From a virus, in IMG/VR virus record IMGVR_UViG_3300048839_001225, positions 1 to 23,554 of that record: DNA of 23,554 nucleotides, one strand, 5' to 3'. Positions 3,419-23,554 of this stretch are shown here, in pieces; positions within the stretch are counted from its first letter, which is position 1; the number at the start of each line of letters is the position of its first letter. The position numbers and the translations under genes were made by a program. Under the pieces are notes generated by a model. It saw only the letters and a list, made by a program, of their open reading frames with translations. It did not search any database and had not been told where the DNA came from.

Positions 3419-3609
3419 CTCGCGCCCCACTTGGCCTGCGCGGCCCTGAGCCGCCGCTGGGTCCTCTCCAGCTCGTCGGCGAGCGCGGAGAGCAGAGGCT
3501 CGATCTGGCAGGCCCAGATCGTGCAGCCCTCGCAGCGGATGTTGCGCCCGACCTCCCGGGCCCGCTCAACCAGCCGATCCGCACGATCTCCATCGCGGCC
3601 GAGTTTCAT
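3415..3609 (-). CDS. Small Cys-cluster/coiled-coil early protein (64 aa)
   Basis: ATG at 3609 (MKLGRDGDRADRLVE) overlaps the stop of the replication initiator by 4 nt. The protein is two charged helices flanking three cysteines, C26, C29 and C34 (RCEGCTIWACQ). The second helix is a likely coiled coil (LLSALADELERTQRRLRAAQ). The Cys trio could bind a metal, but a fourth ligand is not obvious. Its place directly after the initiator, with translational coupling, suggests it works with replication; this is inference. Confidence 0.68.
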   Translation of the reverse strand: MKLGRDGDRADRLVERAREVGRNIRCEGCTIWACQIEPLLSALADELERTQRRLRAAQAKWGAR

Positions 3610-4727
3610 GGGGCATCCTCCTGGCTGGCGGCCTCCAGGACGCGCTCGAGAAGGCCGCGGGAGAGCACCAGGCGGCGCCGCTCCTCGGTCGTGCGGGACC
3701 AAAGCAGGTCCCGGTACCAGTTCGAGTCGGTGGTCCGGGCGAACGCCTCGATGGCCGCGTCGAGGCCCTCCTCGCCGAGTGCCTCGACGCGGGCGGCGGC
3801 CTGGCGTTCCGCCTCCTGGGCGATCGCCAGCTCGGCCTCGCGCTCCCGTCGGCGCCGCTCGGATGCGGATTCGGAAATCCGGTCCCGCTCCGCCTGCTCC
3901 CGCTGTCGCCTACGTTCGGCTTCGATATCCAAGAAGCTCGGTTCCCGGATCCGGGAGATGACCCAGCCCGGAACCCCGCCAGGCCGCAGAGAATCCCGCC
4001 TGGCGCGTCCGGCCGCCAGGGCGGCCCGGACCACGGTCGGGGTCGTCAGCGTCAGGCAGGCGAGCTCCCTGGCGGTCCGTGGGTCGATCCAGTCCGAGCG
4101 TCCGTACCACTCGGGCTTGCGGACGATCAGCTCGTAGCAGACCGCGGCGTTGCCGTCGAGACCGGCCCCGTGATGGACGGGCTCCGGCTCCGAGCGCGTA
4201 GATCGAACCCCACCACCACCACCATCCGCCCTGATGGTGGTGGTGGTAGAAGTCTTGTTAGATACAGTGAGGTATAACGGCGACTGATGTCCGCACGGCT
4301 GGACATCTGATGTCCGGACGCGTGGACATCTGATGTCCGGACGCGTGGACATCTGATGTCCGGACGCGTGGACATCGGGCGCGAAGATGTAAGGTACACG
4401 ATCGGGCTCCTGCGGCGGTACGTTGTGGGTCTGCATGGCACTCCCGATCGTCAGGAGATAGATCGACGCACGCCCCGTTCGGGTGCGTCGAAGCAGGCCA
4501 CGGGAGCCGAGCTCCGCCAGAGCCTGGAACATCCGGCTCCGCCCCAGGCCCGAGTGCCGGATCAGGGCGGTAGCCCTGGCCTCGACGGCCCACCCGTCCC
4601 CGTCGTCGTGCGGGAAGCTCATCGCGACCAGCACGCCCAGAAGCAGGCGGGCCGCCGGCGTGAGCCCCAGCTCGGCGCCGGTCTCGATCGCGAATCGGGT
4701 CATCGAGGCTTTGGATCGTGCGTCCAT
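3606..4727 (-). CDS. Lambda-O-like replication initiator with internal origin iterons
   Basis: ATG at 4727 (MDARSKASMTRFAIE) is chosen over an open extension because GAGGG lies 5 nt upstream. The 373-residue protein has a winged-helix-like N-terminal domain at about 1-95 (TPAARLLLGVLVAMSF; SGLGRSRMFQALAELGSRG; wing RTRTGRASIYLL). A low-complexity linker follows at about 115-180, then a charged, largely helical C-terminal region with a Glu/Arg coiled coil at about 265-320. The linker is encoded by four 23-bp iterons (residues 118-148) and a long hairpin (161-172). This is the architecture of lambda O: DNA-binding head, origin inside the gene, C-terminal part for helicase loading. It follows the integrase and heads the early chain. 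Initiator function is strongly suggested by architecture; a generic HTH regulator is the alternative. Confidence 0.82.
   Translation of the reverse strand: MDARSKASMTRFAIETGAELGLTPAARLLLGVLVAMSFPHDDGDGWAVEARATALIRHSGLGRSRMFQALAELGSRGLLRRTRTGRASIYLLTIGSAMQTHNVPPQEPDRVPYIFAPDVHASGHQMSTRPDIRCPRVRTSDVQPCGHQSPLYLTVSNKTSTTTTIRADGGGGGVRSTRSEPEPVHHGAGLDGNAAVCYELIVRKPEWYGRSDWIDPRTARELACLTLTTPTVVRAALAAGRARRDSLRPGGVPGWVISRIREPSFLDIEAERRRQREQAERDRISESASERRRREREAELAIAQEAERQAAARVEALGEEGLDAAIEAFARTTDSNWYRDLLWSRTTEERRRLVLSRGLLERVLEAASQEDAP
4212..4247. repeat. Long perfect hairpin next to iterons
   Basis: Bases 4212-4225 and 4234-4247 are perfect inverted repeats of the form (ACC)n/(GGT)n with a 14-bp stem and an 8-nt loop. 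It lies inside the initiator gene and encodes a Thr-run and a Gly-run. The stretch between it and the iterons (4248-4284) is the least GC-rich part of the gene and could be the unwinding element. The origin role is inferred by analogy with lambda ori. Confidence 0.75.
4285..4376. repeat. Four tandem 23-bp iterons, probable replication origin
   Basis: Units start at 4285, 4308, 4331 and 4354 with an exact 23-bp period. Each has the dyad GATGTCC-N8-GGACATC. The last three are identical and the first differs only in the N8 spacer (GCACGGCT in place of GGACGCGT). Because 23 is not a multiple of three, the encoded peptide reads the unit in successive frames (DVHASGHQ, MSTRPDIR, CPRVRTSD). Iterons inside an initiator gene, next to a less GC-rich stretch, match lambdoid origins. 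Confidence 0.9.
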
Positions 4728-4814
4728 GCGGCCCTCAGAGGGTGTCGGCCCTGATGTGGTGCAGGTGTGATGCGGCAATCCCCGTCGGCCCGGTGGGGGC
4801 ACGCCGGAGACGGT

Positions 4815-9654: not shown

Positions 9655-10469
9655 CAGACCCCCAGGTCGCCCCAGGCGACGAACTCATAGAGCCGATGGA
9701 CGAAGTACCAGCCCGCACGCGCGACGACGATGCCCAGGGCGTCGTCGAAGTCGGCGGTTGGGCTGATCTCGAGAAAGTCCCAGCCCGCGACATCAGCGCT
9801 CATGCCGTCGCCGACCGGGACGCCGGCCTCGTTGCGTCGATAGCCGAACTCGTACCGGGCGGCGTAGCGGCCGGTCGCCTGTTGCTCGATCGAGAGGCCC
9901 TGGAACAGGAGCGTCCCCGCCGGGAAGACCTTAAACGGCTGGGCGTTGACCGTGCCGAACGCGGCGACCAGGTTGCCCAGCAGCCCGTCGATTTCCTGTT
10001 GGCTGAACTCCCGGGTGTAGCCGGTGGTCCAGACCGGGCGGAGCACGGCGGTCCCCTCGGCCTGGCCGTCCTTGTTGACGCGGATGAGCTGGTCGTGGTC
10101 CGGCGCGGGCCCCGCGCCGCCGCTCCGGCCGGAGCTGACGACCGCGTGGGAGCGGTTCATCGTCTCGGTCGTGAGCGTGCCGGCGTAGGAGACGAGGGTG
10201 TTCGTGGGGAGCGCGGTGAACCCCGAGCCCGCGCCGTACCGGGCCTCGCAGTGGTACAGGTGCCGCGGCCCGACCGCGACGACCTCGGTCGCCTCGATCC
10301 CAGAGAGGCTAAACCCGTCGTACTCGGGCGGGGCCTGGAGGCCGACCGCCTCGCGGACCTCAGCGAGACCCTCGTTGGCGGGGTCGGTGGCGATCGCGCG
10401 GTAGAACAGGGAGCCGCCGGCGGGCCCGAACTTGTTCTCGCCGCGTCGGCGGGGATGGACCTCGATCAC
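9654..10469 (-). CDS. Tail protein following the tape measure (271 aa), distal-tail-like position
   Basis: It starts MIEVHPRRRGENKFG at 10469 with an ATGA overlap to the tape measure gene and ends in a TGATG overlap. The conserved-looking stretch includes YTREFSQQEIDGLL, VNAQPFKVFPAGTLLFQG and ARYEFGYRRNEAG, a pattern of a mixed alpha/beta tail protein. In siphoviruses the gene after the tape measure usually encodes the distal tail protein. That role is inferred from synteny only. No catalytic motif is visible. Confidence 0.77.
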   Translation of the reverse strand: MIEVHPRRRGENKFGPAGGSLFYRAIATDPANEGLAEVREAVGLQAPPEYDGFSLSGIEATEVVAVGPRHLYHCEARYGAGSGFTALPTNTLVSYAGTLTTETMNRSHAVVSSGRSGGAGPAPDHDQLIRVNKDGQAEGTAVLRPVWTTGYTREFSQQEIDGLLGNLVAAFGTVNAQPFKVFPAGTLLFQGLSIEQQATGRYAARYEFGYRRNEAGVPVGDGMSADVAGWDFLEISPTADFDDALGIVVARAGWYFVHRLYEFVAWGDLGV

Positions 10470-12235
10470 CGGAATACCCCCTGGTTCTCCGTGTTGCGAG
10501 CGATCTCTCTGACGACGGACTCGATGTTGCCCATCTTGTTGAGGATGCGGTCGTTGGCGACGCCGAACATCGCCTGCAGCGCGGACGAGGCGCTCAGGCT
10601 GCCGACGGCGGCCGAGACGGAGGGGAGGCGGCGGCGATCGCTCTCGGCCTGGGTGGTACGCTCGGCCTCGGTGGAGGCCCGGGCCTCGCGGCCACGAGCC
10701 AGGGACTGCTCCAGCTCGCGGCGGTACTGCTCGATCTCGCGGCGGGCCTCGCGGACAGCGCCGGATTCGCGTGCCTCGGCTTCTCTGGAGAGGTCGGTGA
10801 TCAGGTCCTGGGCCTCGGCCAGGGTGTTGCCCTCCAGCAGCTGGCCGGTCCGCCGGTGGTAGTCGAGCTGGGCCCGGCGGCGATCCTGCTCGGCGACCAC
10901 GGCCTCGGCCTGGTCGGTGTAGTTGAAGAAATCCAGCCAGATCCGCTGGGCTTCGAGGCCGGTGTCGACCGCCATCCGCTTGGCCCGGTCGAAGAGCCCG
11001 GGGACGGCGACCATGCCCTGGGCGATGCTGTCAACGACGCCCTGCCGGGTGTTCTCTCTGCCCGCCATGTCGTCGACCAAGTGGTCAAAGTCCGATCCGA
11101 TCCGCTCGAACTCGCGGAGGAACGCGAGGCGGACGCCGGCGGCCGCGACTTTGGCCGCCGCCTCGATCTGCCCGGCGGCCAGGAGCTGCGTGACCAGGCC
11201 GGCGGTCTCGCCCAGCTCGCGGCCGAGCTCCCGGAACGCGTCTCGGCCGTCTCGGGTGCCGGCGATCGCGCCGACCAGGGCGGCGACCGAGCCCGCGAGG
11301 AGGAGGGCCGGGTTGCTCGCGGCCAGGGCGAGCACGCCCAGGCCCGCGATTGCCGCGCCCGCGGCCGCGACCGCCCCGGCGACCCGGACGGCGCTGTCGA
11401 TAACCTGGGGATTCGTGGCGAGCCAGTCGCGGGTGGAGTCGACCACGCCGTTCAGGGCCTGCAGATACCCGGTGAACCGGCCGATCAGGGAGGAGCCGAT
11501 CGAGGCCCGAAGATCAAAGAGCTCATCATTCAGTCGCCGCATCTGGTTCGCCCAGGCGTCCGAGGTCCGGACGGCGTCGCCGACGGCGCCCTGATCGCCC
11601 ATGACCCTCGCGATGATGCTGGTCCTGGCGACGGCCTTGCTCAGCTCGTCCGCGGCCGCGGTGCTCGCGGCGAGCCCGAGCCGCTGCAGCTCCAGGTCCA
11701 GCGCGGCCTGCTTGATGTTGATGCCGAACCGGTCGAGGACCTCGCCGGATCCGGACAAGGCCGCGATAAACCGGTTTGAGGCTTCGTCGTCGCTCAGATT
11801 GTTGAAGGACGCGAAGTCCAGGCTGAGCTCCGCCATGCGGCGGCTGAGCAGCGAGGCCTGGTCGGCCCCGAACCCCAGGCCGACGAAGAACGACTGAAAA
11901 TTCGCCATGGTCGCCCGGAGCCGGGTGCCAGAACGCCCGACCGCCTCGCCGAGGGCATCGGCAAAGCGGCCGGCCTCGTCCGCCCCCTCGCGGAAGACCA
12001 GGCGGAACCGATTGCGGATCTCCTCGGCGTCGCTGGCGGCCTTGATGCTGATCGCGGCGATGGGGGCGACCGCCGCGCTGCTCGCGGCGAGCATCGAAAC
12101 CCCGAGCGTCCGTGCCGAGGTCCCGAACGCCGCGAGCCGCCGGCGGGCGCTTTCGAGCGTGTGGTTGAGGTGCGAATCCTTGCCGAGGAGCTCGACATAG
12201 GCCTCGCCCGCCCGGATGGCCCGCGAACTCGTCAA
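10466..12235 (-). CDS. Tail tape measure protein
   Basis: A 589-residue protein starting MTSSRAIRAGEAYVELLG. It is long, helical and alanine-rich, with coiled-coil stretches at both ends. Residues about 280-345 form hydrophobic segments (VAGAVAAAGAAIAGLGVLAL; NPALLLAGSVAALVGAIAG), as in most tape measure proteins. The N-terminal part (TLESARRRLAAFG..ARTLG, then SDAEEIRNRFRLVF) is the usual start of phage tape measure families. It sets tail length and is shorter than average, so a short tail is expected. It lies after the chaperone and lipoprotein genes. The identification is firm from composition and position. Confidence 0.92.
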   Translation of the reverse strand: MTSSRAIRAGEAYVELLGKDSHLNHTLESARRRLAAFGTSARTLGVSMLAASSAAVAPIAAISIKAASDAEEIRNRFRLVFREGADEAGRFADALGEAVGRSGTRLRATMANFQSFFVGLGFGADQASLLSRRMAELSLDFASFNNLSDDEASNRFIAALSGSGEVLDRFGINIKQAALDLELQRLGLAASTAAADELSKAVARTSIIARVMGDQGAVGDAVRTSDAWANQMRRLNDELFDLRASIGSSLIGRFTGYLQALNGVVDSTRDWLATNPQVIDSAVRVAGAVAAAGAAIAGLGVLALAASNPALLLAGSVAALVGAIAGTRDGRDAFRELGRELGETAGLVTQLLAAGQIEAAAKVAAAGVRLAFLREFERIGSDFDHLVDDMAGRENTRQGVVDSIAQGMVAVPGLFDRAKRMAVDTGLEAQRIWLDFFNYTDQAEAVVAEQDRRRAQLDYHRRTGQLLEGNTLAEAQDLITDLSREAEARESGAVREARREIEQYRRELEQSLARGREARASTEAERTTQAESDRRRLPSVSAAVGSLSASSALQAMFGVANDRILNKMGNIESVVREIARNTENQGVFR

Positions 12236-12238
12236 CGA

Positions 12239-12907
12239 TCACTCCACGGGGTAGGAGGCGTGGGTCCGGACGAACTGCTTGGTCTTCGCGCTCATCGCGC
12301 CCTGGATCGAGGACCAGGCCTCCCGGGCCCGGGCCGCGTCGGCCACCGAGCTCGCGGCCTGGCTGTCGAACCAGCGATCGAACCCGGCGAGGGCGTCGGA
12401 GACGGACTCCGTGGCCAGGCGGGCCTTGGACCGGGCCCGGGCCGCCGCGGCCCCGCCCAGCAGGATACCGACCAGCCCGGCGATCTCCCCGAACGGCGGG
12501 GGGAGGACGGCGCCGACGCCCTGGGCGATCGCGCCCGCGTTGCTCAGGTGCTGTGAGGCGGTGTCGGTGTAGACCGGCGCGGCCGCGAGGCTGGACTTGG
12601 CGGTCTCGATGCCCCGGTCGAGCCGGTCCAGGAGCTCGCGGCCCTCGTCGACCTTGGCTCGGAGGTTGACGGCGATGGTCGCCAGTTCCCCGCTGCTGGT
12701 CTCCTGGGCGGCCGCCTGGATCTCCGCGAGGCGGGCGTCGACCACCGAGACCTGTTCGGCGATCGCGGCCCGCTCGGCCTCGAGGCGGTCCAGGATCGCC
12801 TGGGCCGCGGCGGTCGCCTCGCCCGGGCTCTGGCCCTCCGGGAGTGTGCAGGCGGTCTGGATCAGAGCCAGGGCGAGGCAGGCGACGAGGCGGAGCGGGC
12901 GGTTCAT
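12239..12907 (-). CDS. Lipoprotein-like coiled-coil membrane protein inside tail operon (222 aa)
   Basis: ATG at 12907 overlaps by 4 nt the stop of the frameshifted chaperone product. The N-terminus (MNRPLRLVACLALALIQTAC) is a signal-like segment ending at C20. The lipobox is imperfect (Q at -3), so lipidation is probable rather than certain. A long coiled coil follows (about 30-110), then a hydrophobic Gly-rich stretch (EIAGLVGILLGGAAAARAR, about 147-165) and an Ala-rich helical C-terminus. It could act at lysis (spanin-like), in superinfection exclusion, or in DNA entry. It sits between chaperone and tape measure, an unusual place for a lipoprotein. Function unknown. Confidence 0.75.
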   Translation of the reverse strand: MNRPLRLVACLALALIQTACTLPEGQSPGEATAAAQAILDRLEAERAAIAEQVSVVDARLAEIQAAAQETSSGELATIAVNLRAKVDEGRELLDRLDRGIETAKSSLAAAPVYTDTASQHLSNAGAIAQGVGAVLPPPFGEIAGLVGILLGGAAAARARSKARLATESVSDALAGFDRWFDSQAASSVADAARAREAWSSIQGAMSAKTKQFVRTHASYPVE

Positions 12908-13580
12908 GGGAGGTCCTCAGGTTTCAGGTCCGCGACGCTGGGCAGGTCCGAGTGCCGGAACGGGTGGAACTCCAGCGGGCTGTATTCGTTGCCGCTGGCG
13001 ATGGTGCTCATGCTGGCGAGCAGGCTGGAGACGAGGTCCCAGTCGTGGCTGCGTCGGGCTTCGGCCATGCAGGCGAGCTGCCCGAAGGTGAAGGGTCCGG
13101 GGTGGACCCCGACGATCCCCGCGAATCCCCAGAGGGCCCCCCAGAGCTGAGCCGGGCCAGGACCTGGTCCATCAGCCGGGTCAGCTCCTCGTCGCTCGGT
13201 CCGGCGAGACGGGTCATCGCGAGGGTCGTCGCCCGGTCGAGCGTCTCCTGGCTCGCACGGGCGATCCGGCTCGCGGCCCCGTTCGTCAGGCCGTCGAAAA
13301 AAGAGGCGATCCCCTCGATGACCGCCTGGCAGAGGTCGCCGATCACCGGGCCGACCGCCCGGGCGTAGTCCGCGGGCTCGTCCCCGGCCTCGGTGAGCAG
13401 GTAGGCGAGCTTGACGAGCATGACCGGGTCGGTCCTGAGCCTGGTGACCAGCTGGCCGGTGTAGATCTCCATGAGGTCGACGCCGAGCTCGTCCCGGGCC
13501 CGCTCCATCAGGGCGGTGTCGAGGCGGACCCGGCGGAGCACGCCCTGCCCGTCGGTGAAGGTGGAGGGGATGCGGGTCAT
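12904..13580 (-). CDS. Tail assembly chaperone, long form made by -1 ribosomal frameshift
   Basis: A G6 run on the coding strand (13142-13137) follows codon 146. A -1 slip there leaves the short frame and opens a frame of 77 more codons ending at TGA 12906-12904, overlapping the next start as ATGA. The extension begins ALWGFAGIVGVHPGPF, then QLACMAEARRSHDWDLVSSL and EYSPLEFHPF. This is the usual pattern of the second half of siphovirus tail assembly chaperones (gpG/gpGT type). The fusion would be 225 residues. Two products, before and after the shift, normally cooperate to load the tape measure with tube protein. A genuine sequence error instead of programmed slippage is the alternative. Confidence 0.8.
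13008..13580 (-). CDS. Tail assembly chaperone, short (unshifted) form
   Basis: A 190-residue frame starting MTRIPSTFTDGQGVLR, with a TGATG overlap to the tail tube gene. It is helical up to about residue 147. After the G6 run it becomes a Ser/Pro/Gly tail (SSGGPSGDSRGSSG) that looks unevolved. It lies between tail tube and tape measure, the conserved place for the gpG-type chaperone. The real functional C-terminus after the slip site is in the -1 frame. Confidence 0.8.
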   Translation of the reverse strand: MTRIPSTFTDGQGVLRRVRLDTALMERARDELGVDLMEIYTGQLVTRLRTDPVMLVKLAYLLTEAGDEPADYARAVGPVIGDLCQAVIEGIASFFDGLTNGAASRIARASQETLDRATTLAMTRLAGPSDEELTRLMDQVLARLSSGGPSGDSRGSSGSTPDPSPSGSSPAWPKPDAATTGTSSPACSPA

Positions 13581-14008
13581 CAGGTCGGGTCCTTCCAGGC
13601 GGGGGCGGTGGCCGACGGCGCGGGGACGATCTCGATCGTGGTCATCTGGATGTCACCCCGGTTCTTGGTCTCGTCAAACTTGGTCAAAACGCCGTCGAAG
13701 ACCCAGCCAGCGCCGGTGCTGACGGTGTCGAGCGCGCGGTACCCGATCGTGGTCCGGGCCTCGAACGAGGCCTGGAGGGCCTGGTACTGGGTGTCCGCGG
13801 TGTCCGTCGGGATCTGGCCGGAGATGACCAGGTCGATCGGGCCGGGGATGTAGACATTGACGCTTTCGGAGGCCGAGGCGTCCTGCTTGGCGGCCTCGGA
13901 GGTGATGGACAGATCCCTCTTGAGGGTGACGGCGTTCCAGCCGCCGTTACCGCCGACGCCGTCGGCCTGGATCTCGAGACTTCCGACGCGACCGGATTTA
14001 CGGGCCAT
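13580..14008 (-). CDS. Major tail tube protein
   Basis: A 142-residue protein starting MARKSGRVGSLEIQADG. It is beta-rich with a pattern seen in siphovirus tail tube subunits: an N-terminal strand, an insertion segment (LVISGQIPTDTADTQY), YQALQASFEARTTIGYRAL, and C-terminal strands (GAGWVFDGVLTKFD; IQMTTIEIVPA). It is directly followed by the chaperone and tape measure genes, the conserved tail order. Length is typical of TP901-1/HK97-type tube proteins. It would form hexameric rings stacked along the tape measure. Confidence 0.85.
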   Translation of the reverse strand: MARKSGRVGSLEIQADGVGGNGGWNAVTLKRDLSITSEAAKQDASASESVNVYIPGPIDLVISGQIPTDTADTQYQALQASFEARTTIGYRALDTVSTGAGWVFDGVLTKFDETKNRGDIQMTTIEIVPAPSATAPAWKDPT

Positions 14009-22441: not shown

Positions 22442-23554
22442 TCATCGCCGCCGGCGTCGACCGAGCGCCATGATGGCGGCCTCGGTGCCGCCGCTGGCCG
22501 GGGGATTGATCGCCGGCCCGGCCCCCTGGTAAACACCCCAGAGGTACGCTCTCGACCCGTTGTTCCCCTGAGGGTGGACATTGCCCTCGTCGAGACGGAC
22601 GGCCTCGGTCGCCTCGGACTCGCCACCGAAGACCTCGGCCAGGTCGAAGAACCCGAGCCCGCCGAGCGAGCCCGCCGCGTTGAGGTCGCGCTCCCACTCG
22701 TTTATCGCCAGGTGGTTCGACACGCGATCGGCGACATACGAGGCGAACGCGGAGGGGGTCGGTGTCGGGCCGAGCAGGAGATTGCCGCCACCGGAGCGGT
22801 ACGCTGCGATGAGCGTCTGTGTTGGGGCCTGTATGCCGGAGAGGTTGCCGAGTTCGTTTACCGTGCCGTTGATCTTGCCATCGATGATGTGGAGCGGAAA
22901 CGATCGACTTGCCGAGACCCAGGCATCAGCATCGTCTTCGAGCGAGTAGGTCAGGAAGTCCTCGATTGACATCCCCGACCGTCCGTAGCAGCAGAACGGA
23001 CCCGAGGGCAGCGAGTAGAGACCGAAGCCCGAGGCGGCCTCGCCGCGCCCCATCTCGGCGTCATAGGCCCGCCGAGCCCAGTATCCCGGCGTGCTGCTGA
23101 CCGGGCGGACCAGGCCGCCGCTCCCGGCGGTGGTGTTTGTGTAAGAGGACTCGATGAGCATCGGCAGAGAGGCCGCGTACTGCGGGCCCCACCAACTGAA
23201 CGCGGTGGCGCTTTCGACATTCAGCGTTGCCGCGATCTGCATGTAGCCCGTCTCGGCGGGGAGCCCGGCAAAGACGGTGCCGTCATCGGTCCACGCCTTG
23301 AGGTGTGCGGCGGTCGATCCCTCGACCGAAAGATTATTGACCGTCACGCCGACGGGCTCGCCCTGCACGAAGGAGAGCTGCACGATGTAACCCGCCGTGC
23401 GGACGATCGGGATGCCGGTGTTGACGACCTGCCACGAGAATCCGTCGTGATACTGCAGCCGGAGGGTCGTGTCGGTCGCGCCCTCGGGGATCCGGATGCC
23501 GAGTTCGGGCGTGCCGTCGGCGGCGTGCAGCGTGATGTCCAGGCGGGAGTCGCC
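22442..23554 (-). CDS. Large virion protein, C-terminal part, 5' end cut by window end; SGNH-esterase-like domain
   Basis: The frame is open at the window end and stops at 22442, 18 nt before terminase. Its first 129 codons match residues 355-483 of the gene at 1-1449 with two amino-acid changes (D to N, A to S). The C-terminal region has a pattern of SGNH/GDSL hydrolases, second half: HIIDGKINGTVNE (block III-like G..N), LIAAYRSGGGNLLLGPTPTP, NEWERDLNAAGSLGGLGFFD and DEGNVHPQGNNGS (block V-like His). The expected D-x-x-H spacing is altered, and a block I GDS is seen only as GDSRLD in a strand-like context, so activity is doubtful. Such domains in tails may deacetylate surface sugars. It ends in an Arg-rich tail (GRRRRR). 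Confidence 0.72.
   Translation of the reverse strand, partial: GDSRLDITLHAADGTPELGIRIPEGATDTTLRLQYHDGFSWQVVNTGIPIVRTAGYIVQLSFVQGEPVGVTVNNLSVEGSTAAHLKAWTDDGTVFAGLPAETGYMQIAATLNVESATAFSWWGPQYAASLPMLIESSYTNTTAGSGGLVRPVSSTPGYWARRAYDAEMGRGEAASGFGLYSLPSGPFCCYGRSGMSIEDFLTYSLEDDADAWVSASRSFPLHIIDGKINGTVNELGNLSGIQAPTQTLIAAYRSGGGNLLLGPTPTPSAFASYVADRVSNHLAINEWERDLNAAGSLGGLGFFDLAEVFGGESEATEAVRLDEGNVHPQGNNGSRAYLWGVYQGAGPAINPPASGGTEAAIMALGRRRRR
23168..23554. repeat. Right copy of 387-bp near-identical terminal direct repeat
   Basis: It matches 1-387 without gaps with 7 substitutions; five are third-codon synonymous and two are missense. It runs to the very last base, as expected of an overlap from a closed circle. 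Confidence 0.97.

Follow-up and report, generated by a model that had tools for sequence, protein, structure and literature searches.

The putative tail assembly chaperone gene of this virus can be read in two frames, which raises the question of whether it encodes one protein or two and, if two, where the ribosome changes frame. The window, by which we mean the whole stretch of DNA analyzed, is virus record IMGVR_UViG_3300048839_001225 (23,554 bases, 70% GC). The initial annotation proposed a -1 frameshift in this gene at a run of six G (G6), by slippage on a pure glycine codon run, and the letters are as it described them, namely the zero-frame open reading frame (ORF; 13008-13580), the G6 run (13137-13142), a 77-codon -1 stretch after it and an ATGA overlap with the next gene (12904-12907). 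The frameshift itself is upheld by comparison with related loci but its position is not: the reading that we favor, with a probability of about 0.92, is programmed -1 ribosomal frameshifting at an upstream heptamer, T_TTT_TTC, and not at G6, aided by an internal Shine-Dalgarno (SD)-like element and a stem-loop and giving a gpG-like chaperone and a gpT-like fusion protein.

The Locus and Its Neighborhood

The minus strand of the window carries genes for terminase, portal, capsid-protease, head-tail joining and tape measure proteins, and a tyrosine integrase is also encoded. The gene under study lies among the following features:

13580..14008, minus strand: probable major tail (tube) protein gene, directly upstream of the chaperone gene, named from its position and from a homologue upstream of the chaperone in relative L024
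13008..13580, minus strand: zero-frame tail assembly chaperone ORF, 190 aa, gpG-like (homologues, AlphaFold2, fold matches)
12904..13302, minus strand: -1 reading frame after the proposed shift, 132 codons from the heptamer and then TGA, comprising a predicted disordered linker and a gpT-like domain
12239..12907, minus strand: lipoprotein-like ORF whose product has a signal peptide and a LIQTAC lipobox; its start and the -1 stop share an ATGA
10466..12235, minus strand: tape measure protein gene, matching tape measure PHROGs 1535, 1533 and 28 (E down to 6.4e-8)

The order corresponds to that of the lambda G/GT class, with the chaperone between the tube gene and the tape measure gene, the tube gene being placed by position only; the tube candidate had no Pfam match and no convincing PHROGs match. 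Pfam and PHROGs searches with the window proteins likewise returned nothing convincing for the zero frame or the -1 frame, and PDB sequence searches gave no match. The chaperone name thus comes to the window via its relatives and gene order, with no direct match to a named family, and is to be read as putative.

One lipoprotein-like ORF separates the window chaperone from the tape measure gene, its ATG at 12907 overlapping the -1 stop (12904-12906). Small signal-peptide ORFs with a lipobox-like cysteine fill this interval in the window and in approximately ten relatives (L162, L168, L086, L098, L104, L105, L114, L118, L175 and L178, each time immediately 3' of the -1 stop), and in many other relatives the tape measure gene follows the chaperone directly. 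The slot is possibly a site for lipoprotein cargo genes, perhaps serving superinfection exclusion. Elsewhere in the window, the terminal stretches of the record are repeats of one another, with 98% identity and few mismatches over at least 300 nt (1-300 vs. 23168-23467, continuing to 23554); the genome is probably circular or terminally redundant, of approximately 23.17 kb, with the first and last ORFs being one gene. Beside the integrase gene, inside ORF 3606-4802, a 23-bp unit, CTGATGTCCGGACGCGTGGACAT, is tandemly repeated in four copies (4284-4376), each holding an imperfect palindrome and resembling an iteron or operator.

Relatives and the Frame Relation

Peptide-pattern searches with the window chaperone, capsid or -1 domain alone recovered no relatives, and the window sequences had no match among phage records. 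A terminase search yielded 80 related viral contigs, in nine of which tblastn with the window -1 stretch found homologues at 31-40% identity (two of them, L044 and L045, are apparently duplicates), and in all nine the homologue is read in -1 relative to the chaperone ORF that precedes it. An alignment of the nine sequences was too diverse to serve as a search profile, and one of four sequences worked. A zero-frame protein profile added 80 more viral contigs and 19 bacterial loci, the latter comprising 16 Planctomycetota, one Verrucomicrobiae metagenome-assembled genome (MAG), Victivallis vadensis and a MAG labelled Caulobacterales. The host of the window phage is probably a member of the Planctomycetota or of related bacteria; a literature search for such recoding in Planctomycetes found nothing. 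The sequences of a central relative (L078), both zero-frame and -1, had no match in 50,697 phage records.

The frame relation was scored with profiles of both domains in the three forward frames of all loci. Conservation of the -1 frame was something on which the initial annotation had staked its proposal, and the relation is indeed conserved: the downstream domain lies exactly -1 to the chaperone ORF in 118 of the 119 loci with both domains, the window included. The one exception, L180, has a +1 relation and a zero frame that is interrupted early, and contig L160 ends before the relation can be read. L180 is the chromosome of Planctomycetes bacterium syqfu, where it is one of three gene copies found, and is probably a decaying prophage copy. 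Because the same frame relation recurs across the loci, the -1 frame is genuine and no error in the window contig accounts for the arrangement; on the evidence of these sequences, the frame is also used. Further statistics refer to a nonredundant set of 52 loci, each less than 80% identical to the others.

The Proposed Shift Site

Three features bear on the place of the shift:

13296..13302, minus strand: slippery heptamer T_TTT_TTC, codons TCT TTT TTC (13304-13296; Ser93-Phe94-Phe95), proposed -1 shift site
12958..13155, minus strand: predicted folded gpT-like domain, approximately residues 50-115 of the -1 segment (AlphaFold2, Pfam matches of relatives, tblastn)
13137..13142, minus strand: G6 run, read TCT GGG GGG CCC, inside the first helix of the -1 domain

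An in-phase T_TTT_TTC occurs at one aligned position, within the motif D-F-F-P, in 42 of the 52 loci, and in every one of the 52 the codon before the TTT position has T as its third base, no matter which residue it encodes (D, N, S, G, A or Y). Elsewhere in the same loci TTTTTC encodes 24 of 91 Phe-Phe pairs, GAT makes up 43% of Asp codons, and the in-phase heptamer is found five times per 96,692 codons. In the window TTTTTTC has a single copy (0.13 expected), which is the one at 13296-13302 in phase in the chaperone gene, against a codon usage in which 20 of the 148 Phe codons are TTT and T is the last base of only 5.5% of all codons. The patterns used to retrieve the relatives lay upstream of the heptamer, which was therefore not selected for.

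The -1 frame is kept open from this point onward. The 2511 codons between heptamer and domain contain no -1 stop, compared with 75.6 ± 6.8 expected when the zero frame of the nonredundant loci is randomized synonymously; upstream of the heptamer, stops approach the expected frequency (152 vs. 181 by the same randomization). The -1 frame opens exactly at the heptamer in eight of the 52 loci and at it or within 36 nt upstream of it in 22.

The exact heptamer is missing from ten of the 52 relatives (which have, for example, AAT TTT TCC or GAT TTT ACC; AAT CTT ACC in L146; TCT TTC TGC in L118), so some must use weaker or different sites. Six loci (L114, L118, L120, L146, L169 and L176) form a subgroup in which the second Phe codon is gone and xCC CCG or TGC CCG follows; two of its members are without the TTT as well, and the open -1 frame is kept, with the SD in some. 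As a guess from these sequences, the shift in this subgroup may now take place at the C_CCG that immediately follows the usual position, or may be weaker.

The heptamer lies approximately 160 nt upstream of G6, where the initial annotation had placed the shift as slippage of glycyl-tRNA on T_GGG_GGG_C. We consider a shift at G6 very improbable. The run makes up two Gly codons of the zero frame, the -1 frame goes on beyond it, and one relative (L024) has an in-phase AAA AAA at a comparable position just before its domain; but T_GGG_GGG_C is not a standard X_XXY_YYZ site, and a G run is absent at that place in the relatives: G6 occurs in none of the other 51 loci, and these also lack any run of at least five G close to where the domain begins. 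The motif is also unexceptional in the window, with 19 copies of GGGGGG compared with 59 in shuffled sequences and one copy of TGGGGGGC compared with 2.6. The initial annotation rightly described the -1 frame as open after G6, but the picture was incomplete: in the window the frame is open from far upstream, and the homologous domain starts before the run (QLWGALWGFAGIVGV). The T before G6 and its first two G's encode in the -1 frame a tryptophan at a position that is aromatic in 38 of 47 relatives (32 W, 6 Y) and that belongs to the first predicted helix of the -1 domain. Since this conserved residue is already read in the -1 frame where G6 begins, the shift must be upstream; slippage at G6 would replace it and other conserved -1 residues at the start of the helix, whereas -1 reading upstream of G6 would give the peptide ...GPAQLWGALWGF, as in a fusion shifted upstream. 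A shift at G6 would further leave unexplained the lack of -1 stops between T_TTT_TTC and the domain, the conserved heptamer, and the SD and RNA structure described below. The G6 run is probably incidental, and with the site upstream of it, a true count of five or seven G's, raised earlier as a way to obtain one uninterrupted frame, would not matter. Two predicted tryptic peptides of the window would distinguish the positions, GADPADGPGPGPAQLWGALWGFAGIVGVHPGPFTFGQLACMAEAR being specific for a shift at T_TTT_TTC and LSSGGALWGFAGIVGVHPGPFTFGQLACMAEAR for one at G6.

Proposed Stimulatory Elements

Two further elements flank the heptamer:

13311..13316, minus strand: internal SD-like stimulator GAGGGG, approximately 9 nt 5' of the heptamer (CTG GAG GAA or similar in relatives)
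13274..13293, minus strand: candidate downstream stem-loop CGGCCU...GGGCCG, from RNA folding, with a spacer of approximately 2 nt; the exact stem is tentative

A scan of the relatives for pairing to the anti-SD upstream of the heptamer gives a single sharp peak, at -18 to -12, and the GAGGGG of the window forms a best anti-SD duplex of -7.2 kcal/mol. Pairing exceeds that of synonymously randomized sequence in 44 of 52 loci (Wilcoxon p=1.4e-6). On the 3' side, the stretch beginning approximately 10 nt 3' of the heptamer start is more structured across the family than synonymous codons predict (mean z -1.34 ± 0.18), the signal at other offsets being much weaker or absent, near zero. The precise stem varies among loci and the spacer of the window stem is short.

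These elements bear on a second explanation, that RNA polymerase rather than the ribosome slips on the six T's, yielding mRNAs with an extra U and no ribosomal frameshift. The homopolymer at the site is conserved, as this would have it, yet six T's are short for transcriptional slippage, and relatives with four or five T's keep the layout (GAT or AAT TTT ACC in L120 and L176, AAT TTT TCC in L024). Bacterial polymerases are able to slip on homopolymer runs (reviewed in PMC5009743), but the internal SD, an element specific to the ribosome, is conserved here at a fixed spacing, and we regard realignment of the transcript as extremely improbable.

The Two Predicted Products

AlphaFold2 predicts the 190-aa unshifted product with a mean pLDDT of 84, as a small beta hairpin and helices up to residue 99 (69-99), further helices at 102-126 and 130-145, and then a Ser/Gly/Pro tail. 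Residues 1-95 form the core common to this product and the fusion, and residues 96-145, the extra helices, belong to the unshifted product only. Over residues 1-95 the fold weakly resembles YqbN (3klu, Z 3.3) and the HK97 chaperone (2ob9, Z 2.8); matches in a viral library bore the name tail assembly chaperone, at E of approximately 0.1. The Ser/Gly/Pro tail, earlier taken for degeneration of the zero frame after G6, has a similar composition in many relatives. The tail sits where the zero frame overlaps conserved -1 coding, which therefore probably dictates its composition.

The fusion would comprise 225 aa, 95 from the zero frame and 130 from the -1 frame, the latter as a charged linker and a helical domain. 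The gpT-like domain is predicted with a pLDDT of 96-98 over most of its length, its first confidently predicted helix being residues 50-64 of the -1 segment. The initial annotation was right in calling it chaperone-like. Of 47 relatives, 22 match Pfam PF06223 (Phage_tail_T, lambda gpT) at E ≤ 0.01 (best E 7.4e-6), although those matches that were inspected individually lie under the curated cut-off of 25.9 bits. The -1 domain of the window did not match PF06223, and a fold search with the T-like domain returned nothing convincing.

The -1 domain might instead be a separate protein translated from its own start, with no frameshift at all; lambda has a separate T gene annotated, and translational coupling is common in phage tail operons. 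We rejected independent initiation because start codons are missing: from the site to the domain, ATG, GTG and TTG are absent from the -1 frame in 49 of the 52 loci, among them the window, where that stretch also has no -1 stop. A separate start, moreover, would not require the -1 frame to be open upstream, yet there are no stops there, and this explanation is scarcely credible. The chance that one gene was split by a sequencing or assembly error in the homopolymer of a single metagenome-type contig is practically nil, and as a general explanation such an error is already refuted, since viral contigs and bacterial genomes together supply 118 loci with the same frame relation, both frames overlapping for at least 121 nt past the site.

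The frame relation, the conserved site, the SD, the local structure signal and the coding of the -1 frame come from computation; that slippage at T_TTT_TTC occurs, its rate and what the products do are inferred. Most ribosomes would read the zero frame to 13008 and make the 190-aa gpG-like chaperone. Pairing of the internal SD (GAGGGG, 13316-13311) with 16S rRNA, together with the downstream stem-loop, would cause some of the ribosomes to step back by one base at the heptamer, the two Phe-tRNAs on UUU and UUC re-pairing with UUU and UUU. The slipped ribosomes would then read the -1 frame through the charged linker and gpT-like domain to the stop at 12904, giving the 225-aa fusion. By analogy with lambda G/GT, for which these roles have been reviewed (PMC5009743), the shared core may bind the tape measure protein and the T domain recruit the tail tube subunit, with the slip rate setting the ratio of the two products.

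Comparison with Known Recoding Systems

A -1 frameshift in the tail assembly chaperone gene is a common trait of tailed phages, and the TTTTTTG heptamer of P2 is close to that described here (PMC3091744). The family shares with the lambda G/GT class the -1 shift, a conserved second domain in the -1 frame, which in 22 of 47 relatives matches Phage_tail_T at E ≤ 0.01, an in-phase slippery heptamer, and the order of tail tube, G, T in the -1 frame and tape measure. It differs in the heptamer, which is G_GGA_AAG in lambda, and in where the slip lies. After the heptamer, lambda has 15 zero-frame sense bases left, P2 18 and TM4 21, compared with 121-343 nt (median 194.5) in the family and 285 nt in the window; for HK97 and phiC31, the extent of the open -1 frame limits the overlap to at most approximately 50 and 80 nt, respectively. 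The comparison covers these five named phages. Phage Mu was left out of the comparators; its chaperone shift is -2 and different in kind. Slippage a few codons before the G stop, a typical though not defining trait of the lambda/P2 type, is thus absent from the family, and because the slip in the window lies 285 nt before the zero-frame end, the fusion would be without half of the unshifted protein, its C-terminal helices included.

P2 E/E+E' (T_TTT_TTG) likewise slips on a U6 heptamer in a chaperone gene beside the tape measure gene (PMC3091744), and differs in having G as the last heptamer base, where the window has C, and in its short overlap. A downstream structure was not reported for P2 (PMC3091744), whereas the window family has a local structure signal. 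In this respect the layout resembles that of Escherichia coli dnaX (A_AAA_AAG; PMC3711429): an SD-like element 5' and a hairpin 3' of the heptamer are found across the family, the hairpin of the window itself being tentative. The gene and the purpose of the shift in dnaX are unrelated, and the family heptamer is of the U type. HK97 gp13/gp14, for which a -1 frameshift is annotated, and the Bacillus YqbN-type proteins are alike in the weak fold similarity over residues 1-95, which at Z 2.8-3.3 comes with no PDB sequence match from the window.

The recoding is therefore of a known kind, that of lambda G/GT and P2 E/E', and the variation is a slip in mid-gene with long dual coding. We think it somewhat probable that in this family, which is unknown among named phages, the slip lies at the end of a shared core with approximately 40-115 codons read in both frames, the products then having alternative C-terminal halves; the two forms could have separately evolved roles, with a rate set by the internal SD. 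The family is not recognized from its zero-frame sequence by Pfam, PHROGs or tblastn against the 50,697 phage records, and gene callers would miss or misplace the fusion product.

The position of the shift decides what the fusion protein is, namely 95 chaperone residues, a linker and a T domain, and not the 148 plus 77 residues that a shift at G6 would give. The recoding cassette is conserved over approximately 50 diverged phages of the Planctomycetota and neighboring bacteria, and its alternative halves are extra helices on the one hand and a linker with a T domain on the other, rather than one short and one extended version. The long dual-coded stretch indicates that, in a pair of tail assembly chaperones, one C-terminal half can be swapped for another, extension not being the only way in which the two differ.
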